Source: Phoenix dactylifera (Eukaryota > Streptophyta > Magnoliopsida > Arecales > Arecaceae). Taken from it: a stretch of 64,000 nt of DNA. The position numbers and the translations under genes are program-made. How positions within the stretch are numbered: position 1 is the first letter of the stretch; each line of letters opens with the position of its first letter. Below the pieces are notes generated by a model. That model had not been told where the DNA came from. It saw only the letters and a program-made list of their open reading frames with translations, and searched no databases. Location: the NCBI RefSeq assembly GCF_009389715.1, contig NC_052401.1:372001-436000 (forward strand). Reading direction: 5' to 3'. Below, one piece after another: positions 1-15,900 of the stretch.

Positions 1-472
1 GACAACTTCCTGGTTCCGGTCTGAGTCGGCCTTATTTTCCACTACGCCATTAATGGGCCAAATCGTGCCCAATTATTACAAAAGAGAACAAACTCCCTGT
101 CACCTCCCGGGCAACATAAAATCCCTCTATAAAAGGGACCCGGGGAGGAAAAAACTAGGAGGGGAAGACAAGTAAACAGCACAGACACAATTAAGCACAA
201 TATCCTCTTCATCTTCTTCACCCTCTGGCTTGCTTTCTCCACATATTTGCCCCCTCTGACTTAAGCATCGGAGGGCCGGCGCCGGGGAGCCCGGCCACCG
301 GCTTTTTTGCAGGACGGGACAGGACAGGACGCACTCTCCTCTCCGCTCTCTCACACCCCCAGGAGGGCACAGGAGGACGCAGCCGGCCGGCGCACCGCCG
401 TCCGCCCTCCCCGCGGCGGAGCTCCTCCTTCCCCGGCTTCGCGGCGGCCCCCGGGTCCAATTTCCAGCAACA
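1..472 (+). mobile_element. 5' LTR (3' portion) of outer Tat-lineage Ty3/gypsy element
   Basis: This stretch aligns with 11841-12314, the end of the 3' LTR, with about 7 substitutions and two 1-bp indels. It ends in AACA, which pairs with the TGTT start seen at 11160. The start of this LTR lies before the window. A TATA box (TATAAAAG) is at 128-135 and should drive element transcription on the plus strand. Immediately downstream, about 474-491, is the primer binding site region beginning TTGGCGCTAGAGG; I do not assign the tRNA. Confidence 0.93.
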
Positions 473-907
473 GTTGGCGCTAGAGGAAGGGACCGAGTTC
501 GCTGCCATGAAGCTAAGAAGCAAAGGGGCTTCCAACGCCTCTCGACGTCCTCCACCCAGCCCTGAGCATTCCGTCCGAAACTCACCACCTCCGGCTGAGC
601 CAGTTCATCAAGTTCGGCCGGAGCAGTTTGATGCCCTGGTGCAACAGGTGCAGGCCCTGGCTACCGCTGTCCAAAGCCTGCAGCCCAGGGGCATCCCAAC
701 GGCACCGCCTCCTCCGGCTCCAGTTCAACCGGAGCCCCCTACAAGCGGACTTCCCCTTCGAGGTCAGGACTCCCAAGTCCAGGCCTCCCTCTGGAGAGAG
801 CACCCAGCCAGGGGCTACGGAGGCTGGCCACAGCCGTCAGAAGCTGAGTCGGTTCCAGGGCAACCTGCGCTCGAACGAACCGCTGCAGCGATCTTCCAGA
901 GTGACGA

Positions 908-1320
908 TGATGGGGACATCAGAGCCCTTCATCCAGATGATCCTAAGCCTCCGGATTGAGCCAGACGCATTTATTTGCATATTTATTTTATTTTATTTCT
1001 GGGTTTATTTGCATTTAGGGATTTATTTGTGGTTTATTTTATTTCTGGGTTTATTTGCATTTTAGGACTTATTTGTGGTTTATTTGTGTTATTTGTGGGC
1101 TTATTAGGATTTATTGTTGTGTAAGGGGGTTTATGCAAATTGTGTATTTGGGCCCTATATAAAAGGGACTATTCTCATGATTAGGGTTAATGAAGAATTA
1201 AAGATTTCTTTCCCCCACGTTTCCTCTTCTTCTCTTCTCCTCCCTTCTCCTTCTTCTCTTCTTCTTCCTCATTCTCTTCCCCTCTTCTCCTTCTTCCATT
1301 TAAAATTTGGTCCGGCATCA
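908..1320 (+). mobile_element. 5' LTR of nested element
   Basis: It starts TG and ends CA and is preceded by the target duplication GACGA. It is T-rich, with TATA box TATATAAAAG at about 1156-1165, followed by a CT-rich stretch near 1210-1300. It differs from the 3' copy by about nine single-base changes. Confidence 0.95.
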
Positions 1321-3460
1321 ACTTGGTATCAGAGCCTCGGGTTTTGCCTCTGTGCCAAAGCCCCGGTCCCTAAACAGCGTCACTGCTTCTCCATCGACTT
1401 CCTACGGCCCACCACCCCTCTCCTCTCTCTCCCTCGGTGCTCATAAAAAAAAAAAAAAGGAATCTCTCTCTTTCTCTCTCGGTTCAAACCAGAGGAGAAA
1501 GGAAAACTCCTTTCCACCGTCGAGCCGCGCCGCCTCCATCCTCCGCCTGCGCCACCGCCAGACCTCACCTGAGCTCCAGACGTCACCCGAGCCCCATCAG
1601 CCAGGTTCCCATCTACTCGTTCCCCCTTTCCCCTTGCCACCAGTCATCACGCCCGTGCTCGCCTCCACCGCCGCCATCAGTCGCCGCCAGCAACGCCCAA
1701 ACCACCATAGGAAGATCTTCCCCACCTCTGCGTCGCGCCGCCTCCCCGCCGCCGAATTCCGCCGACGAGCAGACCGCCCGCAGCGCCACCCCCGCTTCCG
1801 CCTGCACCACCGGAAGCCGCCTTCGGCCGCCACCGTGACTGGCCATCCCTCTCCGGCCACCGTCCGTCGCCGCAGAGCCCCGCCGCAGCCCGTCCCTGCA
1901 GCCGCCGCCACAAGGAACGACCCGCCCTCCCGAACCGTCGGGAGGTTGAAGACCATCAGCCCTAACGGGTAAGAGCAAAACCCGTTAACCCACTCCCCAC
2001 TAGCCCGATCCGTTCCCCCTTCAAAAAAAAAAAAAAGAGAAAAAAAAGCTACGCATGTGACTTGCACGTGATGGACCCTTAATGGGTTTTCGGAGCGGGT
2101 CAAACCCGTTAACCCGAATCCTAACGGGTCTGAGTTAAAAAAAAAGGAAAAAAAAAAAACCTACCTCTGTTCGTCTTCTCCGGCCGCACGCCGCGCCGCC
2201 GCCCTTGAGCGCCGCTCCACCCGTGCCGCCGCCGAGTTCCGCCGCGCGCCGCCCACCCTTCGCCGCTTTCGCTCCACCGGCCGAAGCCACCATCCCCTTC
2301 TTTCTTCGCTATCTGCCTCCACCGCGCCGCCCAACCCCTCCTACCACCGTCGCAGTCCGCCTCCGCCGTCGCAGCAGCTCCGCCGCCACCCGCCTGCCGC
2401 TTACTCTGCTCCGCCGCTCCCTCTGCTCCGCCGCTCCGGCCGACCGCAGCGTCTCCTTGACTACGGCCACCGGCTTCGGCCTTCGCCGTCAACGCCGCCG
2501 AAGCTTCCGCCCTCGCGCTCCGCCCTCCCTTCACCGCCACTACGCCACCGTCGCCGCTGTAACAACCTCCTCCATCTTCCTCACCGGCCATCGCCCCTCA
2601 CCAAAAACCAACTCCCCGTTCACCCCACCGGAACCCCTCCTTTCCCCCTCTTTCTGACCTGCAGACAGAGGCCCTCGGGGCCATCACTTCAAGCCCATCC
2701 AGAGGCCCAAAGGCCAACCAGTCCCCACATCAACCCCAGCAGGCTCTTCATCAACCCGTGCGCCAGCAGCATCCCCTCTCCACAGCTTCAACCTCCAGCC
2801 GTTCATATCTCCTCGGCGTCCACTTCAATCGTGCAACAGTCTGGATTCAGCAATCAACACCACTGAGTTCCTGCATTGCATCCGACGACGTCTCCATTGC
2901 TTGAAAAGCCACGAGCGAATGACTCTGATCGCCTACTTCACGACAGGTAGTAAGGTTTCCACTTTTCTTGGGATTGCTCATTTAATTATGTTCTAGTTCT
3001 CTTGCATGATAGCCACATTTTGAAAACTTATATTGCTGTTATAATTCAGAACATTGAACCTTTCACTTCCGAACACGTCCTATTACCCTTTAAATCTTGA
3101 CATTAAATTAGCACACCCTAGTAACAGGACGTTTCTCAACATTATTCGATCAGATTGATTTAGGATCAGAACAACTGTACCACTTGATTGCAATCTAATT
3201 TCTTAAATTGAATAATCTTAATCCTTAATTCTGAATAACCGAAGTAAAAATCAGCAACATTTAAATTTTAAGTTATTATTGTGAAGACTTGCTGATTTCT
3301 GAAATCATAATAGATTGCATTAGTAGGTTGTCCTGCATCATAATTATTAGGGTTTCATTAGTGACACTGCATTTCACATCATCACCTAGTGTCATCATTG
3401 CATGTCAACCTGTAGTGATATGGAGTACTATTTCAGTCAACCAAAACCCCTGTAACTACC
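1321..3460 (+). other. Leader of nested element: primer site, GC-rich low-complexity blocks, AT-rich spacer
   Basis: After the primer site (1324-1335) come two GC-rich, C- and CCG-rich blocks (about 1490-1960 and 2165-2660). They are separated by A-runs (1446-1458, 2023-2046, 2137-2158) and by short motifs resembling acccgttaaccc near 1980 and 2105. Long frames cross these blocks in several phases on both strands and encode only Pro/Arg/Ala/Ser-rich sequence, so I read them as compositional, not as genes. From about 2950 to 3460 the DNA turns AT-rich with nothing recognised. The blocks may be captured sequence. Confidence 0.5.
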
Positions 3461-5005
3461 ATGAATTCCGACATTTTGAGGTCTATCAAGGAACAGATCA
3501 TTGCCATACGGGCTGGATACAAGGAATTCACACAAGAGATCCGTGAGCTCAGGCAAAATTCTAGGACCCCTACACCGCCAACCCCTGTTGCAGCCCAACC
3601 TAAAATCGGTTTGGTTGCACCACCTGTAATCCTTCCCCATTCTCTTGGGCACCAAACCCAATGCTCAATGTGTCAACAATTCGACCACATAGCATCCCAA
3701 TGTCCTATTAGAACCTACCTGATTACTGAACCAGAAGTTAGGAGCCAAGAGGTCGAATATGTTGAAGAAGTCTATGAACCAAATATAGAAGACTATGAAG
3801 AAGACTTTGAAGACGAACCTATAGAATTAGATTTTGTCCAAAATGATTCCCAAAGGGAGACTATTGATCTAAGTACAACCAAGTCATTTCACATCACTAC
3901 TGTGGAAGAGGTAGTGACAGATATTGAGAGCCAGTCACCTGAATTGGCACTTGTAGCTAAAGATACCCATGTGGAGTCCAATCTTGAATATTCCCCTATA
4001 GTAGTTTCCCTTCTAGAGGAGTTTAATGACGTAGTCCCTGATGATCTTCCGGATGCACTTTCTCCGATACATGATATCCAACACGCAATTGATCTAGTTC
4101 CCGGAGTATTTCTGCCCAACCTTCCACATCATAGGCTCAACCCAAATGCATATGCTAGGACCTGGGATTTAATATTATCGACAATTGAGTTTGCATATCA
4201 TAGTTCGGTTAACAAGTCCATAGGTATGAGTCCATTCGAAGTGGTGCATGATTACAAACCTAGGCAATCCATAGACTTGTCTTTCATGTCTCATCAGTAT
4301 AGAGTCGTTGAGTCTGCACAATCAATTGCATCACATCCATATTCATTGCATCAAGAAATCAGCAATTTTAGTCACTTTAATAACTTAAAATATAAATCCC
4401 TTGCTGATTTAACCAGACGTTATAATGAGTTAAGTGAAAGAGATTACGTCATGATAAGAATTAGGTTTGAACGACTATCTTCGGAAACGTTTAAGAAATT
4501 GCAAACTTGTAGTGCAGAACTGTTCAAAATCTTAAAAAAAATCAGTTCGAATGCATATGTTGTGGATCTTCCTGATGACTATGGGATTAGTGCGACATTT
4601 AATATTGAAGATTTAGTCCCATACAAAAAGTTAATATTCATGCCTTCTGACCCCTTTATTGATATACCTACCCATGTTGGACACCCTGACCTCTTACCTG
4701 CTGTTGAGCCACCACCTTCCAAATCTCATGCACGCAGAGAACAAATAGAACATATAATGGATGAGCAGGTTATTTCAACCAGGAATGGTAGTTACCAACA
4801 TTACCTTGTTCGGTGGAAAGGTCGACCAAAGTCTGATGTGACGTGGATTTCCAGAGCACAGTTGCAGCGCCTTGACCCCGATCTTATGGAGCAGTACGAC
4901 AGCCGGCCAGACTTGTACTCGACGGGGTCGAGTTTTTCTCACCCGGGAGGAGTTGATGGGGACATCAGAGCCCTTCATCCAGATGATCCTAAGCCTCCAG
5001 ATTGA
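3461..5005 (+). CDS. Fused Gag-knuckle / RT-start / integrase-end / chromodomain protein of nested element
   Basis: One uninterrupted frame of 514 codons starts at ATG 3461. Residues 68-81 form a CX2CX4HX4C zinc knuckle. An acidic linker follows. Residues 184-228 match the conserved protease-RT junction of chromoviruses (DIQHAIDLVPG). The sequence then jumps directly to the integrase C-terminal region (about 235-275, FAYHSSVNKS...MSPFEVV), a GPF/GPY-type module (about 327-388, with NAYVVDLP) and a chromodomain (about 427-480, with YLVRWKGRPKSDVTW). All catalytic cores are absent, yet every junction is in frame. The last residues are read from the 3' LTR. It may bind nucleic acid and chromatin; enzyme activity is not expected. 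Whether it is translated is unknown. Confidence 0.82.
   Translation: MNSDILRSIKEQIIAIRAGYKEFTQEIRELRQNSRTPTPPTPVAAQPKIGLVAPPVILPHSLGHQTQCSMCQQFDHIASQCPIRTYLITEPEVRSQEVEYVEEVYEPNIEDYEEDFEDEPIELDFVQNDSQRETIDLSTTKSFHITTVEEVVTDIESQSPELALVAKDTHVESNLEYSPIVVSLLEEFNDVVPDDLPDALSPIHDIQHAIDLVPGVFLPNLPHHRLNPNAYARTWDLILSTIEFAYHSSVNKSIGMSPFEVVHDYKPRQSIDLSFMSHQYRVVESAQSIASHPYSLHQEISNFSHFNNLKYKSLADLTRRYNELSERDYVMIRIRFERLSSETFKKLQTCSAELFKILKKISSNAYVVDLPDDYGISATFNIEDLVPYKKLIFMPSDPFIDIPTHVGHPDLLPAVEPPPSKSHARREQIEHIMDEQVISTRNGSYQHYLVRWKGRPKSDVTWISRAQLQRLDPDLMEQYDSRPDLYSTGSSFSHPGGVDGDIRALHPDDPKPPD
4945..4953 (+). promoter_or_regulatory. Polypurine tract of nested element
   Basis: The purine-rich GGGAGGAGT directly abuts the 3' LTR start (4954), where a plus-strand primer is expected in an LTR retrotransposon. 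Confidence 0.75.
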
Positions 5006-5366
5006 GCCAGACGCATTTATTTGCATATTTATTTTATTTTATTTCTGGGTTTATTTGCATTTAGGGATTTATTTGTAGTTTATTTTATTGCTGGGTTTAT
5101 TTGCATTTTAGGACTTATTTGTGGTTTATTTGTGTTATTTATGGGCTTATTAGGATTTATTGTTGTGTAAGGGGGTTTATGCAAATTGTGTATTTGGGCC
5201 CTATATAAAAGGGACTATTCTCGTGATTAGGATTAATGAAGAATTAAAGATTTCTTTTCCCCATGTTTCCTCTTCTTCTCTTCTCCTCCCTTCTCCTTCT
5301 TCTCTTCTTCTTCCTCCTTCTCTTCCCCTCTTCTCCTTCTTCCATTTAAAATTTGGTCCGGCATCA
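4954..5366 (+). mobile_element. 3' LTR of nested element
   Basis: This is the second 413-bp copy, followed by GACGA (5367-5371), which restores the host gag frame. Its TATA box is at about 5202-5211. The fused frame of the nested element reads into its first 52 bases before stopping at 5003-5005. Confidence 0.95.
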
Positions 5367-6023
5367 GACGAACTCGACAAGAAGGTCGAGAAGCTGGAGC
5401 GCCAAATCCAGGCACTCCACGGGAGAAAATCAGGACGTGACGGCGACTTCGAGTTCACTACGAAGTCTCCCTTCTCCCCGGAGATCGAAGATGAACCGGT
5501 TCCGCTACGGTTCAAGATGCCCCAGGTGGAGCCCTACAACGGCAAGGCTGATCCCCTTGACCACCTGGAAAGCTACCGGGTCTTAACAGCCCTACAAGGA
5601 GCCTCGGAGGCCATGATGTGCAAGGCTTTTCCGGCGACACTCCGAGGACCAGCCCGGCTGTGGTTTACCGGGCTGAAGCCGAGTACTGTCTCCTCCTTTG
5701 AGCAGCTCGGCAGACAGTTTGCCGGCAACTTTGCCGCCAGCCAGCCCCAGCGACGGACGTCCGACTCCCTCCTAGACATTAAGCAAAAGGAGGGAGAGTC
5801 CTTCAGGGAGTATTTGGACCGGTTTACCGCCGCAACATGGGAGGTCCGGGAGCTTGACCAGTCAATCGCCATGTCAGCGCTAAAGACTGGATCCCGGTCT
5901 TACAGGTTCCTCTTCTCAATCGAGAAGAGTTTCCCCTCGGACCTCACCGAAATGTTCGCTCGGGCGCGGAAGTACGCCAAGGCGGAAGAGGCCGTGGCAG
6001 TTAGGCGGGGCGGGACCGAGTAG

Positions 6024-6160
6024 AACCCCAAGGGGTCCCTCATTATTCAAATATTGAATTTCATTCTGTGGATTTCATTTCATAATAAACTTATGATCTG
6101 CATACTCATTTCAAGCTCACCGATTTTCCTGGTTATCTCATGATCCCAGGTTTATTTCTC
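6024..6160 (+). other. Short spacer after gag
   Basis: About 140 bp of AT-rich sequence separates the gag stop from the first hairpin. No protease or RT frame begins here, although that is where pol should lie in a full Tat element. Confidence 0.6.
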
Positions 6161-7440
6161 CTCCCCTGACTACGGTTGGGATGCCCCGATATCTCGGGAT
6201 GATAGAGTACCCACGTGGACTCCCTGAAGACGGTTCGTGAGTTCGTGATGCGCTCTCCATCGGCCAACGAGCTCGGCTCGTTCTCCTACCCTAACTACGG
6301 TTAGGATGCCCTGTCACAACGGGATGCCCCGATCCGTCGGGATGGCTCGAGACGTCGAGATACGGTCCTAAGTGACCGACGAGCTCGGCTCGTCCTCCAT
6401 CGACTTCCACCGACGAGCTCGGCTCGTGCTCCATCGGCCAACGAGCTCGGCTCGTTCTCCTACCCTGACCACGGTCAGGATGCCCCGAGACGTCGGGATG
6501 CCCCGATCCGTCGGGATGCCCTGAGACGTCAGGATGCCCCCAATATATTGGGATGCCCTGCCACAACGGGATGCCCCGATCCGTCGGGATGGCTCGAGAC
6601 GTCGAGATACGGTCTTAAGTGACCGACGAGCTCGGCTCGTCCTCCATCGACTTCCACCGACGAGCTCGGCTCGTGCTCCATCGGCCAACGAGCACGGCTC
6701 GTTCTCCTACCCTGACCACGGTCAGGATGCCCCGAGACGTCGGAATGCCCCGATCCGTCGGGATGCCCCGAGACGTCGGGATGCCCCGGCTATAGGGAAG
6801 CTCGAGACGTCGAGATATGAGTTGCGGTCCTCTCTGACCAGACGAGCTCGGCTCGTTCTCCATCGACTTCCACCGACGAGCTCGGCTCGTGCTCCATCAG
6901 CCAACGAGCTCGGCTCGTTCTCCTACCCTGGCCACGGTCAGGATGCCCCGAGACGTCGGGATGCCCCGGCTATAGGGAAGCTCGAGACGTCGAGATATGA
7001 GTTGCGGTCCTCTCTGACCAGACGAGCTCGGCTCGTTCTCCATCGACTTCCACCGACGAGCTCGGCTCGTGCTCCATCAGCCAACGAGCTCGGCTCGTGC
7101 TCCATCAGCCAACGAGCTCGGCTCATTCTCCTACCCTGGCCACGGTCAGGATGCCCCGAGACGTCGGGATGCCCCGGTTATAGGGAAGCTCGAGACGTCG
7201 AGATATGAGTTGCGGTCCTCTCTGACCAGACGAGCTCGGCTCGTTCTCCATCGACTTCTACCAACGAGCTCGGCTCGTGCTCCATCAGCCAACGAGCTCG
7301 GCTCGTTCTCCTACCCTGACCTCGGTCGGGATGCCTCGAGACGTCGAGATGCCCCGATTTATCGGGATGCCCCGATGCGTTGAGATGCGGTCTTCATTGA
7401 CCAAGACGAGCTCAGCTCGTTGTCCGCCGGCTTCAGCCAA
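6160..7440 (+). repeat. Array of short hairpin units in diverged tandem repeats
   Basis: The region is packed with short inverted repeats of four kinds. (A) 6-bp stems with a 4-base loop, for example 6290-6305 (CCTAAC/GGTTAGG) and 6464-6479 (CCTGAC/GGTCAGG). (B) 5-bp stems with a 4-base loop, at 6185-6198, 6328-6341, 6346-6359, 6484-6497, 6520-6533, 6539-6552 and 7353-7366. (C) ACGAGC-tcg-GCTCGT, many copies, first at 6267-6281. (D) CGGTC-6-GACCG, for example 6363-6378. Units are commonly linked by GATGCC. Longer tandem periods overlie this: about 248 bp (6363 to 6611) and exactly 180 bp (6821 to 7001), then 208 bp to 7209 owing to a 28-bp extra duplication. The frames across it are repeat artefacts. 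Confidence 0.9.
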
Positions 7441-7460
7441 CGAGCTCGGCTCGCTTTCTA

Positions 7461-7925
7461 TTCTTGGATTTCTCTGCCGACGTCCCCAAAAAATGGAGTC
7501 CGAGCAGAGAAGCGTCTTCAGTCGCCTCGGCGCAAGGACGCACACGGTACAAGGTACCCATTTATTTAATATTTTTACATTATCTTATCTATTCTTGGAT
7601 CTCTGCCGATGTCCTCAAAGAACGGACCCCGAGCAGAGGAGCATCTTCAGTCGCCTCGGCGCAAGGACGCACACGGTACAAGATACCCATTTATTTAATG
7701 TTTTTACATTATCTTATCTACTCTTGGATCTCTGCCGACGTCCTCAAAGAACGGACCCCGAGCAGAGGAGCGTCTTCAGTCGCCTCGGCACAAGGACGCA
7801 CATGGTATAAGGTACCCATTTACTTAATGTTTCTACATTATCTTATCTGTTTTGGATTTCTCTGCCGACGTCCTCAAAGAGTGGACTCCGAGCAGAATGT
7901 TTTAGTCGCCTCGGCGTGAAACACT
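7461..7925 (+). repeat. About 130-bp tandem repeat, four copies
   Basis: Copies begin near 7461, 7592, 7721 and 7850 with the motif CTTGGAT then TCTGCCGACGTCC. Each contains GAGCAGAG...GTCGCCTCGG, and the first three have a run resembling acccatttatttaat. The last copy is partial and diverged. Tandem repeats between the coding part and the 3' LTR are known in Tat-lineage elements and can seed satellites. Confidence 0.88.
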
Positions 7926-8428
7926 CACGATACCAACAAACTTGGTATAAACAGTCTGTTGAATCCCCGTCACGAGCTGACGAGCATTCGACCCATTCGT
8001 TGGAAAAGAATCCGGTTCGCCCCGACAACCCGAGGCTCGGATTCGAAGTTCACTACGCTAAAAAAGATCTGTCCTAGCGGCCGCCCCAGGGCTTGGTCGA
8101 ATTCTGGACTAGGCTCGAAAAAATTCTCCGAGCCCGAATCCCCTTGGTATAAGCATAAGCGTCGCTATACCACTGGTCGAAGGACCGAGCAATGGAGCTC
8201 GGCTAGCCAAACCTAAAACCAAACCCTGTGGCGGGTAAAGCTGAGGCCCTAGAGCCCATGTCCTCGGAACCTAAAATGGATCCGAGCAGAGAAACTTGGA
8301 CTACAACAGACGAGTTTCCAAAAAAGTATATTCATTTCAAAAAGCCCGTAGGCTGAGTACAAAAATTCGGGTTCGGCCCTTACAAGTATGGGGGGCCATC
8401 CCGACTTTACAAAATAACAAAAATTACA
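7926..8428 (+). other. Non-coding spacer of outer element
   Basis: About 500 bp lie between the tandem repeats and the stop of the antisense gene. I see no pol remnant and no convincing frame on either strand. It presumably holds the 3' end of the antisense transcript. Confidence 0.5.
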
Positions 8429-10648
8429 CTAAGGCTCGAGCTCGACCACTTCGGCTTCGGCAGTATCGAGAGCGGTAGGCTCAGCAGTCGGGGCTTCAGT
8501 AGCCTCGGCAGCAATGGGAGTAGCCTCAGGGGCGGCTTCGGGGGCGGCTTCGATCGCCTCGGCTGGATCTCCCTGGTCGGCCCCCGGAGTTTCTGCCTCC
8601 GCCTCCGGCCTCTCGACCCCTGCTCCCGGTTGGAGCAGGTTTACATCGAAATCCGGGAGAAGCCGCCGCAGTTGGTTGCGGAAGTCCCGGAAGCCCTGAA
8701 TTAGCCCGTTCACGCCCTCCTCTGCTAGGAGGTCGTGAAACTCCTCCGACTCGCGGAAGAGCCTTACCGCGTTCTGGGCTTGCTCCCGAGCCTCGAGCTC
8801 CCGAGCCTCGTGGTATGCGGCCTTCCGCTCGAGGGTTTTTATTTCCCGCTCGAGCTCCAAGTATCGGAGGCGGGCATTCCCCACCTCCTGCTCGCGGGAG
8901 GCCAACGCCAGCTCGGCTGTGGCCAAACGAGCCTCGGCGGCGCGCACTTCGGACCTTGTTAGTGTGTGCGCGCCCTTCTCTTCATCGAGCTCGGCGGTCG
9001 GAGCTCGAATTCTTTCCTCGGATGCTCCAATTCTCTCTTGGAGCACCTGACGTTCGGCCTCGGAGGCCTGGTACCTCGCCTCGGCGGCCAGGTACCTCGC
9101 CTGGGCCTCCTCGTAACCGCGCTGGCACCTCCGGGCCCGCTCCCGGTAGTCTTGGACTATGTGCATCAGCATTTCCGTCTCGTGCAAGTGCTGTAAAAGA
9201 GACGAAAAGAAAGACATAAGGCGCTGCGAGTAAAAATTTTTTTACAAATTACACAGACGAAAATTTTACTTACCCGGACGGCGTTGCAGCGGGTAGCGTC
9301 CATGAAGGCATTGTAGCTTATGGACTGTATCGTGGCCCGGTCGGCCGGGAGCAGCGCGACCCGGAATACTTCGCGCGCCACTCGAGGGTTTTCGAGGGCT
9401 GAATCGCCCTCGAATACCGACCAGGTGAGTGCAAGAGGCACTCGCTCCCCCGAGCCGGATGGGCCCGGAAGGCCAGCATCGGCTGGCCTAGAAGGAGCCG
9501 ACCCCGAGGCTCCGTGACTGCTCCCCGGCTCGGAGCTAGGGGGCTGGGGTCGGACAAGCGGCCGATCTGACTGCCGCACGATCGAGGCGGGGCGCGCAAG
9601 CGCGGGACCCGCGGAACTCCTCCCCTGGTCGGCAACTGAAGTATCCTGCCGACCAGGGATTTGTGCCAAGGGCACCGGGCATGGGAGCACCACCGAAGCT
9701 CCCCGGGAGCCCGAGCCCCTGGAATCCGCGCCCTCCCTCTGACCAGCATCGGAATGCGCGGGGCGAGAAGGACCCGCCTCGGCCACTGCTGTCGCCAGGG
9801 TCGCTGAGGTCGCCGAGACCTTCTGCTTCTTCCTCGGCTCGGCGGGCTCGCCCGAGAGCTCGGCTGCCCTCTTCTGGAAGCGAGCATAGAGGACTTCGCT
9901 TTTAGTCACCATCTTTGCGATATCTGCAAAGGCGAACAGGGTTAGAACATTAGAACAGTAAGGAAATAAAAAGAGACTAACTATCCTTACCATGGGGACG
10001 TGCCGAGCTCAAGCCCACGTTCACCAAAGCGTCCTCACATATGAGGCCGTTCAGTAAGATGCCGTCCCCGAGGCTGCGGATGGCGTCGAGGATCCCCTGC
10101 TCACGTGGAGAAAGTCTGGGGGATTTGTTGATGGACTTGAGCTGAGCCGGTCCCCACCTGGGGTCAAACCCCCAGGACTGTGCAGAACCAAGGAAGAAGA
10201 ATTTCTCCTTCCAGCCATGAATGGATGAGGGGGCACCATGAAAAAGTGGCCGACCCGCCCGAAGGGCGATATACAGCCACTCACCGTCTCCCGGATTCGA
10301 CTTAAAAATAAAAAGCCGTCGGAAAACGTTGACAGAGGTCGGAATTCCGTGCAGTAAGCATAGTGACAGGAAACCGATCACTGTCCTCCAGGCATTCGGA
10401 GCGAGTTGCGCCGGAACCAGCCGGTATACCATCAGCAACTCATTCATGAAGCCGTGAAGAGGAAATCGGAGACCGGCCCAGAGTGACTCTAGGTACACTC
10501 CAATCCGGCCTACCGGAGGATCGGTTACCCGATCCCCACGCCTGGCGGGTTCCAAGCGGAACCCGTGAAGAGGGAAAAACCACTCTTCGTTCATTTCGAC
10601 CTCCAGGACGCTCATGGTAGACTCGACCTCACTGGGGAGAGAACCCAT
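8429..10648 (-). CDS. Antisense three-exon gene of the outer retrotransposon (PF04195-like N-terminus, coiled-coil C-terminus)
   Basis: Exons on the minus strand are 10648-9991, 9923-9274 and 9190-8429. Donors are GTAAGG and GTAAGT, acceptors TTTGCAG and TTTTACAG. Phases match (658, 650 and 762 nt), giving 689 codons. Residues about 18-150 resemble the plant 'putative gypsy type transposon' domain (PF04195) with repeated FPLHGF motifs and QLAPNAWR. Residues 220-436 are Ser/Pro-rich with a basic PRKKQKV (249-255) that looks like a nuclear signal. Residues about 440-600 form a long Glu/Arg/Ala coiled coil; the tail is Ala/Glu/Pro-rich. Family function is unknown. A TATA-like site lies about 145 bp upstream. 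It is a retrotransposon accessory gene, not a host gene. The exact splicing is inferred. Confidence 0.8.
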
Positions 10649-10791
10649 TGTAAGGGAAGAAAGGGATTAAGAAAGAAAAAAGGACGACCTGGGGAAGACG
10701 CCGGAGAAAAGAACTTCAGACTGTGAAAAGCTGGGGGAAGAAAAGCTAGAAGCAGAAGGCAATAGGAAGGGGACGGAGGGCCAGGGGAGAG

Positions 10792-10801
10792 TTTATATAA
10801 A
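10792..10801 (-). promoter_or_regulatory. TATA-like box for the antisense gene
   Basis: TTTATATAAA is palindromic, so strand is set by context: it sits about 145 bp upstream of the minus-strand ATG at 10648 and nothing on the plus strand starts nearby. It suggests an independent promoter inside the retrotransposon. Confidence 0.5.
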
Positions 10802-11137
10802 CCTCCCCAACGGCCCCGATCGGCAAAAGAAAAGCCGCACCCCGTTGAGATGACCACACGTGTCGGTCCAAAAGACAGAACGACGCATTTAATTAGGGCT
10901 AACGCTTCGAACGCCGAAGCGCCCCATCGGATCGTGCGGCCCCATCATGAGCCCACGGCGCGAGGACGCCTCGCAAAAGGTGTCCCAATAATGAGGATTT
11001 TCGGAAAAGAAGAGACGCCGCCTATTAAAGGCATCTCGAAGTATCCGATAATTCAAAATGCGCAATAAATTAAAATTTTCGGAATTCGTAACGGCCCAAC
11101 TAAAGCTACTTCCCGCGCCCCAGCTGGTAGCCAACTG
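10802..11137 (-). other. Upstream region of the antisense gene
   Basis: About 340 bp lie between the TATA-like box and the polypurine tract of the outer element. No gene is seen. By position it would contain the upstream control region of the minus-strand gene. Confidence 0.4.
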
Positions 11138-11159
11138 GAACTCGGAAGTCGGGGGGTAG
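11138..11159 (+). promoter_or_regulatory. Polypurine tract of outer element
   Basis: A purine-rich stretch ending in GGGGGGTAG touches the 3' LTR start TGTTGGGGG at 11160, the expected plus-strand priming site. Confidence 0.65.
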
Positions 11160-12314
11160 TGTTGGGGGAAAAACCCCAAGTCATACCGCCACGGAGGCGC
11201 TCGGTCAAAAAACGCCGACCGGAAAGGCGCTCGGCCAAAGAGTGCCGACCAGAGAGCACCAACCAGAGGGGTGCTCGGCTAGAGAGCGCCGGTCCGAAAA
11301 GATGCTCGGCCGAAGAGAGCCGACCAGAGGACGCCGACCAGAAAAGCGCTCGATTAGAAGGCACTGACCAGAGAGGAAAGAGCGCGAAATAAAGGTGCTC
11401 GGCTAGAAGGCGCTCGACCAAAGGGCGCCGACCAGGAGCATTAGAAGCGACCCCGCCACAGGGCGCCCCATTGGGCGACCAGCTCGGCTCGGCACCCCTG
11501 CCGAGCCGATTGCCTTGACCAGATGTTCAACTCCTACCTAACCCCCTGAGGGACTTGACAACTCCACTACAACCTGCCGCTATCTCCAAGCCGTCAAGGC
11601 ATAAGATCTCCGCAGGTATTTGGCACGACCTGCCATTAATGCATGAGACCCCCTCAAGTCTCCGATGCGCTCAGTCATTTAATGAACACGGCTCAAGACG
11701 ATCTCCGGATCACTGAACCATCAAAGCGTATGGCTCTCCCTGATCGCCGGTTCATTCGGTAATAAATGCGCTTACCATCCATGGACCCCGGGCCTACCAC
11801 GGCCGGCGGTTCAACCACTCCAACAGGTCCGATCGACCGTGACAACTCCCTGGTTCCGGTCTGAGTCGGCCTTATTTTTCACTACGCCATTAATGGGCCA
11901 AATCGTGCCCAATTATTATAAAAGAGAACAAACTCCCTGTCACCTCCCGGGCAACATAAAATCCCTCTATAAAAGGGACCCGGGGAGGAAAAAACTAGGA
12001 GGGGAAGACAAGTAAACAGCACAGACACAATTAAGCACAATATCCTCTTTCATCTTCTTCACCCTCTGGCTTGCTCTCTCCACATATTTGCCCCCTCTGA
12101 CTTAAGCATCGGAGGGCCGGCGCCGGGAAGCCCGGCCACCGGCTTTTTTGCAGGACGGGACAGGACAGGACGCACTCTCCTCTCCGCTCTCTCACACCCC
12201 CTAGGAGGACACAGGAGGACGCAGCCGGCCGGCGCACCGCCGTCCGCCCTCCCCGCGGCAGAGCTCCTCCTTCCCCGGCTTCGCGGCGGCCCCCGGGTCC
12301 AATTTCCAGCAACA
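11160..12314 (+). mobile_element. 3' LTR of outer element (1155 bp)
   Basis: It begins TGTTGGGGGAAAAACCCC and ends CCAGCAACA; its last 474 bp match window positions 1-472. A TATA box (TATAAAAG) is at about 11968-11975. The 5' part (about 11190-11450) holds degenerate short repeats resembling GCGCTCGGCC-AAAGAG-GCCGACCAGA. It ends about 675 bp before the RAD5A start codon, in the same orientation. Confidence 0.93.
11190..11450 (+). repeat. Degenerate short repeats in the U3 part of the 3' LTR
   Basis: Alternating units resembling GGCGCTCGGC and GCCGACCAGAG recur every 15-25 bp with scattered changes. The two unit types are roughly complementary (CTCGGC/GCCGA), so the region can also fold. It may be a block of enhancer-like repeats, but that is not shown. 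Confidence 0.6.
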
Positions 12315-12989
12315 AAGTTTATTAAACTCGTGGCCACGTGGTTATTTGTGTAATGGAATTTATTTATTAAGAGAAAAGGTGTAAAATCCATGCATGTGAT
12401 AATTATCCAGATTCAAACTTTTGTAAAATGCCAATTAAATTAAATTTTTTTATTGATGAGCAAAAAAAAATTATTAGCGAAACAAGCCTCAGTTTGCATG
12501 GGGCACTTTCATATCATCTGAATAATGTTTACTTTTGTACTCAAAACTAAAATTTTAAGTTTCGGCACAATGGGATTATGGGGGTGTCCGGGTTATTTGG
12601 TCTTATTTCTATAAAAAAATGAGAGCGGGATGAAGCTCCATAACTCAATTATGAAAAAAATTTAAACCATGCTCAAATCAGCAAGGGGACTGTGACTTGA
12701 GAATTTTTTTTTTCCAAGTGCAAATTGGTAGCCGCGCGTTCGCGCCAAAACAGTGGCTTGCATATCGGCTGTAAAAGGGAAGGCGGGAAGTTCACTTCCT
12801 GCAAAGGCGGCGGCCCCTCCAACCCAAAAGCCCACCTCCCCTCTTTCAATCCTCATACGCGTATAATCCCCTGCTCTTCTCGCCTCTCCAGCTCCGACGT
12901 CTGGGCCCAATAGCGTAAATTGTCCAGGGTTAGGTTAGAGGGCTCAACTATACGGTACAGAATTAGGGTTCCTGATCGATGCTCGCCCG
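12315..12989 (+). promoter_or_regulatory. RAD5A upstream region with two E2F-like sites
   Basis: This 675-bp stretch separates the retrotransposon from the RAD5A ATG. It is AT-rich to about 12700 and then GC-richer. TTCGCGCCAAAA at 12739-12750 is the reverse of the E2F consensus TTTGGCGCGAA. GGCGGGAA at 12782-12789 is the reverse of TTCCCGCC, one base short of a full TTTCCCGCC. Both lie 200-250 bp before the ATG, which suits an S-phase repair gene. The transcription start is not identified. Confidence 0.55.
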
Positions 12990-15900
12990 ATGGGGAACAA
13001 GGCCACGGACGAGCAGATCGCCGTCGTCCGCTCCGTGGTTGGCCGGGATTTCTCGGACATTGACATAATCCGCGCCCTTCACATGGCCAACAACGATGTC
13101 GCCGCGGCCATCAACATCATCTTCGACACCCCGCACATCCGCCTCACCGGCGAACCCACCGCCTCCACTACCACTACCGCCGCCGCCGCCCGAAAGAAAA
13201 GCCTCACTCCCCCCGTGGCTCCAGATCGCAAAGGGCTCGTTCGGAGCACCAACATGGATCTGGCTGTGGACCGGAATCCCGACAATGGCGCGGTGCGGCC
13301 ATCCGGACCTGCTACCTCCAGGGCATCGGACAGCGACTGGTGGCTCGTCGGAAGCTCCGAGCTTGCTGGGCTGTCCACCTGCAAGGGGAGGCGGCTCAAG
13401 GCTGGCGACAAGGTCACCTTCTCCTTCCCTTCCGCAAATACCTCGACTTCTTCTTCTTCAACCGCAAGATTTCCTGGCCGAGGGCGGTCCCCGGCTTCTT
13501 GTTCTGAGATCGTGCGGTTCTCCACTCACGAACACGGAGAGGTCACTGCTCCTCTTGCTCTTTTTATCTCTTCGAGTCCTTCATACGTCTGCTATCTTGA
13601 GATCTTCCTTTTCCACCTCCCTTGACTGCATCCTGGGTGTTTGTAGATTGGTCGCATCCCAAACGAGTGGGCTCGTTGCCTTTTGCCTCTTGTGAGGGCG
13701 AATAAGATCAGGATCGAAGGTAGCTGTAAGTCTGCTCCAGATGCCCTTGGCATCATGGACACTATTCTCTTGTCAGTCAGGTATCACTTACACAATCGCA
13801 CCTTATATACAGATCTTGTTCACAAATTCTATCGGGGTCCTTGCCCGCCGTTCTTGGAGTCTTCTCGTTTATACATATAAATACATTTTTCTTTCTTTCT
13901 TTTTGTTGTTGTTTATCGTTATTTTTCATCATGCTTTCCTTTTGTATGAACGTGTTCTTCAGTGTATACATCAACAGTTCGATGTTCCGCAAGCACCATC
14001 AGACATCAGTGAAGCCTAGTCGTCCTGCCTCCGAGGAGTCTACAGTTCATGCACTTCCAAACCTGTTTAGATTGCTCGGGCTTACTCCTTTCAAGAAGGT
14101 GCTTTGCAGTGTTACAACTTCATTGCATGTGGCCCTGCTATCTAATTGTTCTCAAAGTGTTCTTCTATGCACCTGCTGCCGCTATTATTTGACCTCCGAA
14201 CAAGTGCCTCTTGAAGCTCATCAAAGCTTCTTTCATTTTTTTAAAAAGCATTTTAGTTGGCCCACAACTAATGCTTCCATCCATCATGCTGGAAGACACT
14301 ATTGTGTCTTAGATAGGGTCACTTGCTCTCTCTTAGATAGGGTCACTTCATTGCTTCGAGTACTCTGTTTAGCATTTGCGTGGTTGAAGTACGCTAATTC
14401 TAGCTGTTGTTTACCATGCTTTGCTATTGCTTCCATGACTGAAAAAATATCCCTGTGAAGGTCATGGATTCAAGTCTAGGGGTAAAAGGAAGGGGGAGGT
14501 TAAAAAAATGCATGGAGGTAGTGAAAAAAAATAATTTCCACTTTGGGGAAATTGAGCCTTATTGGATGAGACTCTTATTTTTTTAAAAGTGAGATCAAAT
14601 CAGACAGCTTAAGTACACGGGAGGAGGCTTGCCCCTCTGTTTATGATTATGTTGCTTATATTGTAGCTTAACTGCATTATTTTTATTATGTTCATTATAC
14701 AAAATTATCACTGTGTTTATTTTCCTCTTTTTTTTATATCTTTAAAACATAAACAGGCTGAGATCACTCCAGAGGACCTTTACGCTAGGAAACGGCCCAT
14801 GGCCTCCAAGGTAAATGCCAAATTCACTGTTTGTGTCCCATTTGTTTCTTGCTAGACTTTTGCTCATGATGATGCTTGAACAGGACAGCTCTGGAGTGCT
14901 TTCAGCAGTGTTACCTTCAGAAAAATGTAGAAAAGTATCTAGCAGTGGAAGTAAAATAGAAAATGATCAGGAGATTATTTCAGATCCTGATTTGGATAAT
15001 ATTGTCGGAATCTCAGACAGCTCCCTATTAGAGGTACCTATATATGTTTGAACCTTTGGTTGTGAGACATCTGACTTCATATTGTCTATGTATTTGTGAT
15101 GTTTTATCTCTCCCTTCTATCTCATTTTTCAGGAAATGGTGCCACCAGAAACTCTGCAATGCGAGCTACGTCCTTACCAAAAACAGGCTCTCCACTGGAT
15201 GGTGCAGATTGAGAAAGGAAGATGCTTTGAGGAGGCAGCAACAACTCTTCACCCATGTTGGGATGCGTACCGCCTTGTGGATAAGTATGATTATTATGTA
15301 TGCCTTTGCTTACCTTGATGAAATTCAAAATCATAAGCTGACTATCTATTTTTTGTTTGTAGGAGAGGACTTGTTGTTTACTTGAATGCATTTTCGGGTG
15401 ATGCTACTATTGAATTTCCTAGCACCCTCAAAATTGCGAGAGGAGGGGTATTAATCTATATTGACCGTGAAAAATTAGTTTCTAATCTTTCAGTTAATTG
15501 TATATTGACTCAGTTATGCAATTTAAGATGCTGGCAGATGCAATGGGACTAGGAAAGACAATTATGACAATAGCTCTTCTTCTTGCCCATCCTAATAAAG
15601 GGTGCTCACCCACTTCTCCCGCAAGTCAGGCCTCTCATGAAGCTAATGTAATGAGCCACATGTCTGATCAATCTCCAAATGATTCGAAGAAACTAACAGG
15701 CATTTCTGGCTTCAGCAAGCTGTTGAAACATAAGGCCACACTTGTAGGTGGCGGTAGTCTAATTGTTTGTCCTATGACATTGCTTGGCCAATGGAAGGTA
15801 AACCAGCTGATTACTTGATTTTTGGTTGTTCTATATGGTATTTCTTATACTGTGCTTACAGTAAAGTCTGTTGATTGTAACTTGCCCGGAAAAGTTATTG

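Follow-up and report, generated by a model that had tools for sequence, protein, structure and literature searches.

Why should a stretch of plant DNA carry dozens of short hairpins whose stems differ from one another in sequence and still pair, and what kind of element carries them? The question is raised by 64,000 nucleotides of the date palm Phoenix dactylifera (NC_052401.1, positions 372,001 to 436,000 of the forward strand), referred to here as the window. A sequence-only reading of the window had proposed that in one array stems change while pairing is kept, that a fold in RNA or single-stranded DNA or else a templated process accounts for this, and that the array lies where pol is missing.

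The array within its element

Positions 1–12314 of the window form a single LTR retrotransposon, the 5′ LTR of which begins to the left of the window (Table 1). The start of gag was inferred by eye at 507, and the closest relative of the gag sequence is from Phoenix dactylifera itself (86% identity). The Ty3 element nested in gag has LTR-like ends (908–1320 and 4954–5366) with 97.8% identity, and Chromo (1.8e-9) and SH3_Tf2-1 (2.2e-12) domains were detected within 3461–5005. Its coding part is apparently much reduced; SH3 and Chromo were the sole domains in the single ORF scanned.

Table 1. Features of the retrotransposon and its hairpin array, in coordinates of the window.
Feature	Position	Strand	Basis
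5′ LTR, right part	1–472	+	98.1% identity with 11841–12314
Region of the primer-binding site, with gag as far as the nested element	473–907	+	follows immediately on the LTR
Ty3 element with a chromodomain, nested in gag	908–5366	+	Chromo, SH3_Tf2-1, LTR-like ends
Remaining gag, up to the deletion junction	5367–6023	+	Retrotrans_gag, 1.6e-12
Post-pol leader of other copies, here fused directly to gag	6024–6159	+	comparison with L004
Hairpin array	6160–7453	+	shuffle test, named stems, higher-order repeats
Class B unit CCTGAC tacg GTTGGG with two G.T pairs	6165–6180	+	
Four class A units in succession: CCCGA/TCGGG, CCCGA/TCGGG, CCTGA/TCAGG, CCCAA/TTGGG	6484–6552	+	
129-bp tandem repeats, adjoining the 3′ side of the array	7454–7916	+	repeat analysis
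Antisense ORFs	8429–10648	-	ORF list
3′ LTR	11160–12314	+	start by eye from TGTTGG, end from CAACA

Further copies were collected from the same genome. A search in which 40 of 734 candidates were scored gave at least 58 matches, and for a second query 40 of 566 candidates were scored. The linker pattern GATGCC N12 GATGCC, which takes no account of pairing, occurs 3264 times in the genome, and its reversed form 52 times. The resulting set comprises 61 loci (the window and 39, 11 and 10 others), which are not all independent insertions, some having a near-identical order of units (for example L050 and L051); 10 of the 61 were chosen by position on one chromosome and not by similarity.

Comparison of these copies places the array behind pol. 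The leader in the window shares 99.3% identity with the 136 bases behind the pol end of a relative, L004, which has integrase domains upstream (rve, 8e-15; Integrase_H2C2, 1.4e-10). A pol end was found just upstream of the array in 48 of the 61 loci, and in 36 of these 48 the first unit begins 160–162 bases past it. Among 46 loci with the post-pol leader, the window is the sole one without a pol end, and its copy is internally deleted, with pol lost. The proposal that the array lies where pol is missing does not extend to the family. Replacement of pol by the array was rejected on the same count of 48 loci, and a non-autonomous TR-GAG-like family was rejected for the family as a whole, 45 of the 46 leader loci keeping the pol end.

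The region between pol and the 3′ LTR (6024–11159 in the window, about 5.1 kb) holds the hairpin array and the 129-bp repeats, which are matched by the right flank of other loci. The antisense ORF at 9977–10648 (minus strand) matches Transposase_28 (PF04195; Pfam, 2.9e-14), which the likeness of the names leads us to equate with TRP28 of Retand elements; 97% of Retand clusters carry TRP28 according to the part of PMC11963269 consulted. The family has an LTR pair, Retrotrans_gag, a Ty3-type integrase (from L004), an antisense TRP28 ORF between pol and the 3′ LTR, and a long pol–3′ LTR region with tandem repeats. The array is the pol–3′ LTR tandem-repeat region of a Retand-like Ty3 family in date palm. 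The sections of PMC11963269 at hand describe for the Retand lineage the same long region, antisense Transposase_28/TRP28 ORF and tandem repeats, as well as deleted non-autonomous copies; origin and function of the repeats are stated there to be unknown.

Some further observations concern the surroundings. The 3′ LTR contains a perfect 10-bp hairpin at 11485–11508, CGGCTCGGCA cccc TGCCGAGCCG, adjoined by sequence resembling one of the array's unit classes (class C, below), and its left part (11180–11460) has imperfect GCGCTCGG.../...CCGACC repeats that by eye resemble decayed dyads. At 12990–13625, some 0.7 kb away from the retrotransposon, lies the beginning of a gene that has a UBA domain of the RAD5A type (2e-26). 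Two public protein records, P0015 and P0016, are translated copies of such an array, the latter reaching into the 129-bp repeats as judged by eye. Rfam 15 gave no matches at gathering scores over the whole window, no tRNA genes were found in positions 1–14000, and a DNA pattern search of viral and prokaryote collections returned no relatives.

Hairpin units and their density

The units of the array are joined by a constant linker of the GATGC type. They comprise 14-mers with a 5-bp stem and a 4-base loop (class A), 16-mers with a 6-bp stem and a 4-base loop (class B) and 15-mers with a 6-bp stem and a 3-base loop (class C; ACGAGC tcg GCTCGT); a further kind has the form GGTC-N6-GACC. The individual stems named in the sequence-only reading were placed correctly: CCCGA/TCGGG at 6484–6497, CTCGA/TCGAG at 6346–6359, CCTGA/TCAGG at 6520–6533 and CCCAA/TTGGG at 6539–6552, and among the longer stems CCTAAC/GTTAGG at 6290–6305, CCTGAC/GTCAGG at 6464–6479 and the G.T unit CCTGAC/GTTGGG (Table 1). 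Spacing is regular when pairing is ignored: in sums made by hand over the 61 loci, 901 of the 1035 intervals between successive ATG[CG] linkers that do not exceed 30 bp measure 18 bp, and CCTAC is followed by ATG[CG] at a distance of 16 bp in 300 of 313 cases.

Within 6160–7453 we counted 39 non-overlapping perfect hairpins (stem of at least 5, loop of 3–6) covering 45% of the sequence, a number that overstates the independent evidence, since many units are duplicated via higher-order repeats of 180–247 bp which distribute them across the array. In 300 dinucleotide shuffles of this interval the mean was 6.6 (sd 2.3) and the maximum 14; this comparison had been set beforehand as one on which the proposal could fail, and it withstood it. 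RNA folding against shuffled controls, suggested at the same time, gave z = −4.9 for 6160–7100 (20 shuffles). Hairpin-dense arrays were found in all 60 loci tested, at 32.4 against 5.3 per kb, each locus lying above all of its 10 shuffles; one of the 61 was excluded for having too few class C motifs. Density alone is weak evidence, because a single palindrome inside a repeat yields many hairpins.

The sense strand is predicted to fold no better than the antisense strand (−575.6 versus −590.4 globally, −510.8 versus −514.7 at span 60). With the span limited to 60, a median pair probability of at least 0.5 was obtained for 10 of 22 class A, all seven class B and 4 of 19 class C units; with no span limit these numbers were 8 of 22, 2 of 7 and 1 of 19. 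In these predictions the majority of class C units, and many of class A, have their partners outside their own hairpin.

Stem changes in old and young types

In the window, the 22 class A units (11 distinct) show double changes at four of the five pairs, which none of 500 shuffles reached, and the seven class B units (5 distinct) gave no significant covariation (reached by 189 of 500 shuffles). For the 61 loci, units were taken by linkers and length alone. This yielded 1063 instances (120 distinct) of class A and, with a loose anchor, 401 instances (56 distinct) of class B. A class A non-unit type (TTCGT gagt TCGTG), AAATTG-type rows among class B (by eye) and four young class A variants at a distance above 4 were dropped.

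The established class A stems are CCCGA/TCGGG, with many different loops, CTCGA/TCGAG (54 loci), CCCAA/TTGGG (46 loci), CCTGA/TCAGG (40 loci) and the wobble form CCCGA/TTGGG (28 loci); in a group with the loop caca (35, 19 and 8 loci) the closing pairs are T.G and in part broken. Class B comprises CCTGAC/GTCAGG (57 loci), the double wobble CCTGAC/GTTGGG with loop cacg (35 of 61 loci), CCTGGC/GTCAGG (11 loci) and CCCGAC/GTCGGG (10 and 7 loci, split by loop). Established exceptions containing A.C or A.A are CCTGC caca ACGGG (35 loci), CCCGA caca ACGGG (8 loci) and, in class B, CCCGAC ctcg GCCGGG, which has an A.C pair (35 loci). Class C has a near-invariant core, the same 15 bases being present in 602 of 688 instances from 41 loci. 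The class B stem CCTAAC/GTTAGG was seen in one of 40 loci and is counted as young (at most two of 61 loci), so it may reflect chance decay. An earlier count over 40 loci and the window skipped far variants, among them this stem of the window, which the 61-locus count includes.

For class A, the claim that stems change while pairing is kept holds far beyond the window. Among the 30 types found in at least three loci, eight pairs are double-changed as against 1.7 in shuffled data, and none of 20000 shuffles reached this value, nor did any of 20000 in which whole arms were shuffled, although these controls leave the relatedness of the types partly in. The check across many copies that the sequence-only reading had called for, made here with shuffles, did not refute it. 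The same claim cannot be carried over to class B alone, for which arm shuffles over the 61 loci were non-significant (1473 and 3928 of 20000).

Types present in at least six loci were regarded as old, and variants in at most two loci as young, the latter being a stand-in for change after insertion. In four of the five old stem types that lie exactly two changes from the commonest type, both changes fall in one pair and are complementary, while 2 of 12 such young variants are compensated (Fisher p about 0.03, by hand), a comparison in which locus count is a mere proxy for age, independent old events are few and the direction of change is undefined. Random placing would put both changes in one pair in about 1/9 to 1/11 of cases; against an expectation of about 1/9, four of five has P about 7e-4 (by hand). 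A minimum spanning tree of the 16 old class A types contains 16 loop changes, 3 broken pairs, 3 wobbles and 2 compensated changes, CCCAA tata TTGGG being linked in via the wobble type CCCGA tacg TTGGG. The corresponding numbers for the young variants are 40, 40, 37 and 0. Relative to loop changes, broken pairs are rarer in the old types (Fisher p = 0.009), and the proportion of compensated to other stem changes is higher in them (Fisher p = 0.008). Since old two-change types are mostly compensated and stem-breaking changes are depleted in old types compared with young ones, pairing persisted through the multiplication of the copies, and decay sets in after insertion. The joint change of the class A arms points to a fold that was of consequence during the multiplication of the elements.

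A second family, F2, has a related pol and a different array. In one batch of 20 loci, 10 carry other arrays; eight of these and 39 more constitute F2 (47 loci), L072 and L077 being excluded. The pol of F2 is 74–82% identical to that of L004 (four loci compared), and the blastn alignment between them ends just past pol, leaving the arrays unaligned. Each F2 repeat unit contains a single hairpin of class B design, with pairs 1 and 2 occurring as C-G, as T.G (13 and 12 loci) and as T-A (3 and 8 loci). When the arms of all 87 distinct types were shuffled, the observed values were reached in 45 and 83 of 20000 cases; for types in at least two loci the result was non-significant (1743 and 1485 of 20000). 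F2 was rejected as a second dense hairpin array, as none of eight loci exceeded all 60 shuffles. The excluded locus L077 has a third kind of array, made of CCGA ccaagt TCGG units, and this adjoins an apparent reverse complement of an LTR start and not pol.

The common class B loops of the window and the F2 loci (cacg, ctcg, taag, caag) all fit YNMG, a stable tetraloop motif, on the sense strand as judged by eye. This bias was set aside as an argument, the independent changes being too few.

What may keep the units paired

The reading we favour, with a confidence a little short of even, is that the folded unit is constrained as long as copies multiply, probably at the level of RNA; it ranks above templated correction, chance combined with copying, and DNA dyads, in that order. 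The array is built of short hairpin modules (5–6 bp stems, mainly 4-base loops) on the GATGC-type linker, and expands and contracts through tandem duplications, either of one unit or of a block of 180–247 bp. In multiplying elements, one-arm changes would be retained mainly when pairing is preserved or the other arm is matched. The likeliest cause would be use of the folded module in genomic RNA, for example as a repeated Gag site for packaging or dimerization, and after chromosomal insertion this constraint would be gone and the hairpins would decay. The analysis demonstrates the architecture, the place behind pol, the density across the family, the covariation of class A and the difference between old and young types; we infer selection as the cause, RNA as the folding molecule and a role of Gag. 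A more far-reaching version, in which the post-pol array of covarying tetraloop hairpins serves as a multivalent RNA platform in genomic RNA (for Gag binding or packaging, for instance), its design held by compensatory change through the gain, loss and shuffling of units, in versions proper to each family and its constraint ending at insertion, seems to us unlikely as a whole.

The sequence-only reading had named RNA, single-stranded DNA or a templated process. The range was well chosen, and the comparison of G.T with A.C pairs picks none of the three. G.T variants have no significant advantage in spread (Mann–Whitney p 0.16–0.28); 16 of 74 G.T and 10 of 48 A.C variants reach three loci. Young variants are balanced, with 32 G.T and 33 A.C in class A and 12 and 13 in class B. 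The excess of 74 over 48 distinct variants was set aside because many G.T variants derive from few G.T parents. A strand asymmetry as proof of RNA is not supported and, given this lack of a significant advantage, neither is selection on sense RNA.

The absence of a significant asymmetry is what a strand-symmetric DNA process predicts, and a polymerase switching to the other arm during reverse transcription or DNA synthesis would keep pairing by mutation and not by selection. According to the accessible part of PMC8794818, template switching is able to create and repair stems, and two private class B double changes, CCTAAC/GTTAGG and CTTGAC/GTCAAG, also fit such correction. We nevertheless consider it somewhat unlikely: young class A variants have 77 single-armed stem-pair changes and none that is compensated, and correction that is unseen in chromosomal copies would need to act in replicating copies only. 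Loops, moreover, retain their orientation in the unit lists (by eye), whereas spacer inversion is given as an expected by-product of template switching in the portion of PMC8604942 at hand.

Coincidence would dispense with both selection and correction, methylated C turning to T on either strand in stems rich in CpG and CNG, and a few matched pairs arisen by chance being spread, as entire units, by tandem duplication. The stem changes of young class A variants are mostly of this kind, C>T and G>A making up 51 of 61 (40 loci and the window), and CTCGA/TCGAG, CCTGA/TCAGG, CCCAA/TTGGG and CCTGAC/CCCGAC are all such transitions. Independent old double changes number about four or five, and young two-change units are compensated at near the chance rate. 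This explanation is rendered quite improbable by the concentration of both changes in one pair in the established two-change types, by the depletion of broken pairs against loop changes in old types and by the arm shuffles, though their controls do not fully remove relatedness. Yet more doubtful is a role of the units as double-stranded DNA, in which a dimeric DNA-binding protein would use their arms as inverted half-sites; the antisense TRP28, which is predicted to bind DNA in the sections of PMC11963269 consulted, might be that protein. The near-invariant class C core resembles a binding site; a fixed site should, however, hold its letters and not just its symmetry, and the letters of classes A and B change in both arms together.

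For the favoured constraint on a folded RNA unit, retroviruses offer a comparison. Their packaging and dimerization stem-loops are few and lie at the 5′ end; murine leukaemia virus reportedly has GACG tetraloops, and Ty1 is said to have kissing loops. By analogy, the palm array would share with them short stem-loops in the RNA of the element, some with a GACG loop; unlike them it lies near the 3′ end, and we treat this as a likeness only.

Hypervariable tandem repeats in the 3′ UTR of Tat/Ogre elements, a source of satellites, were reportedly described by Macas et al. in 2009. The accessible part of PMC7004042 likewise gives tandem repeats for Ogre 3′ regions, so that in both the palm family and Tat/Ogre this portion of the element holds family-specific repeats; neither hairpin nor palindrome occurs in that part. 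In the palm, unlike Tat/Ogre, the unit design is kept in two families though the surrounding sequence cannot be aligned. Retand repeats are treated as tandem arrays in the available part of PMC11963269, in the main text of which ‘hairpin’ does not occur and ‘palindrom’ is confined to the reference list, whereas the palm units are hairpins with matched changes in their arms. The RNA hairpins of PMC8794818 likewise stay paired through matched changes; as far as the part consulted goes, they are those of single RNA genes, whereas the palm element, a mobile one, has dozens of tandem modules and its inserted copies stay uncorrected. Tandem repeats in post-pol position are thus already known; for a covarying hairpin array in LTR retrotransposons, no account was found in the literature searched, which was made up mostly of papers outside subscription and seen in part.

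It is common for Tat/Retand elements to carry tandem repeats between pol and the 3′ LTR, and plant satellites arise from them. Should compensatory change keep their units in hairpin form, at least some of these arrays would be functional RNA modules and not mere by-products. The inserted copies provide a natural contrast between constrained, multiplying copies and unconstrained ones, by which selection can be distinguished from templated correction.
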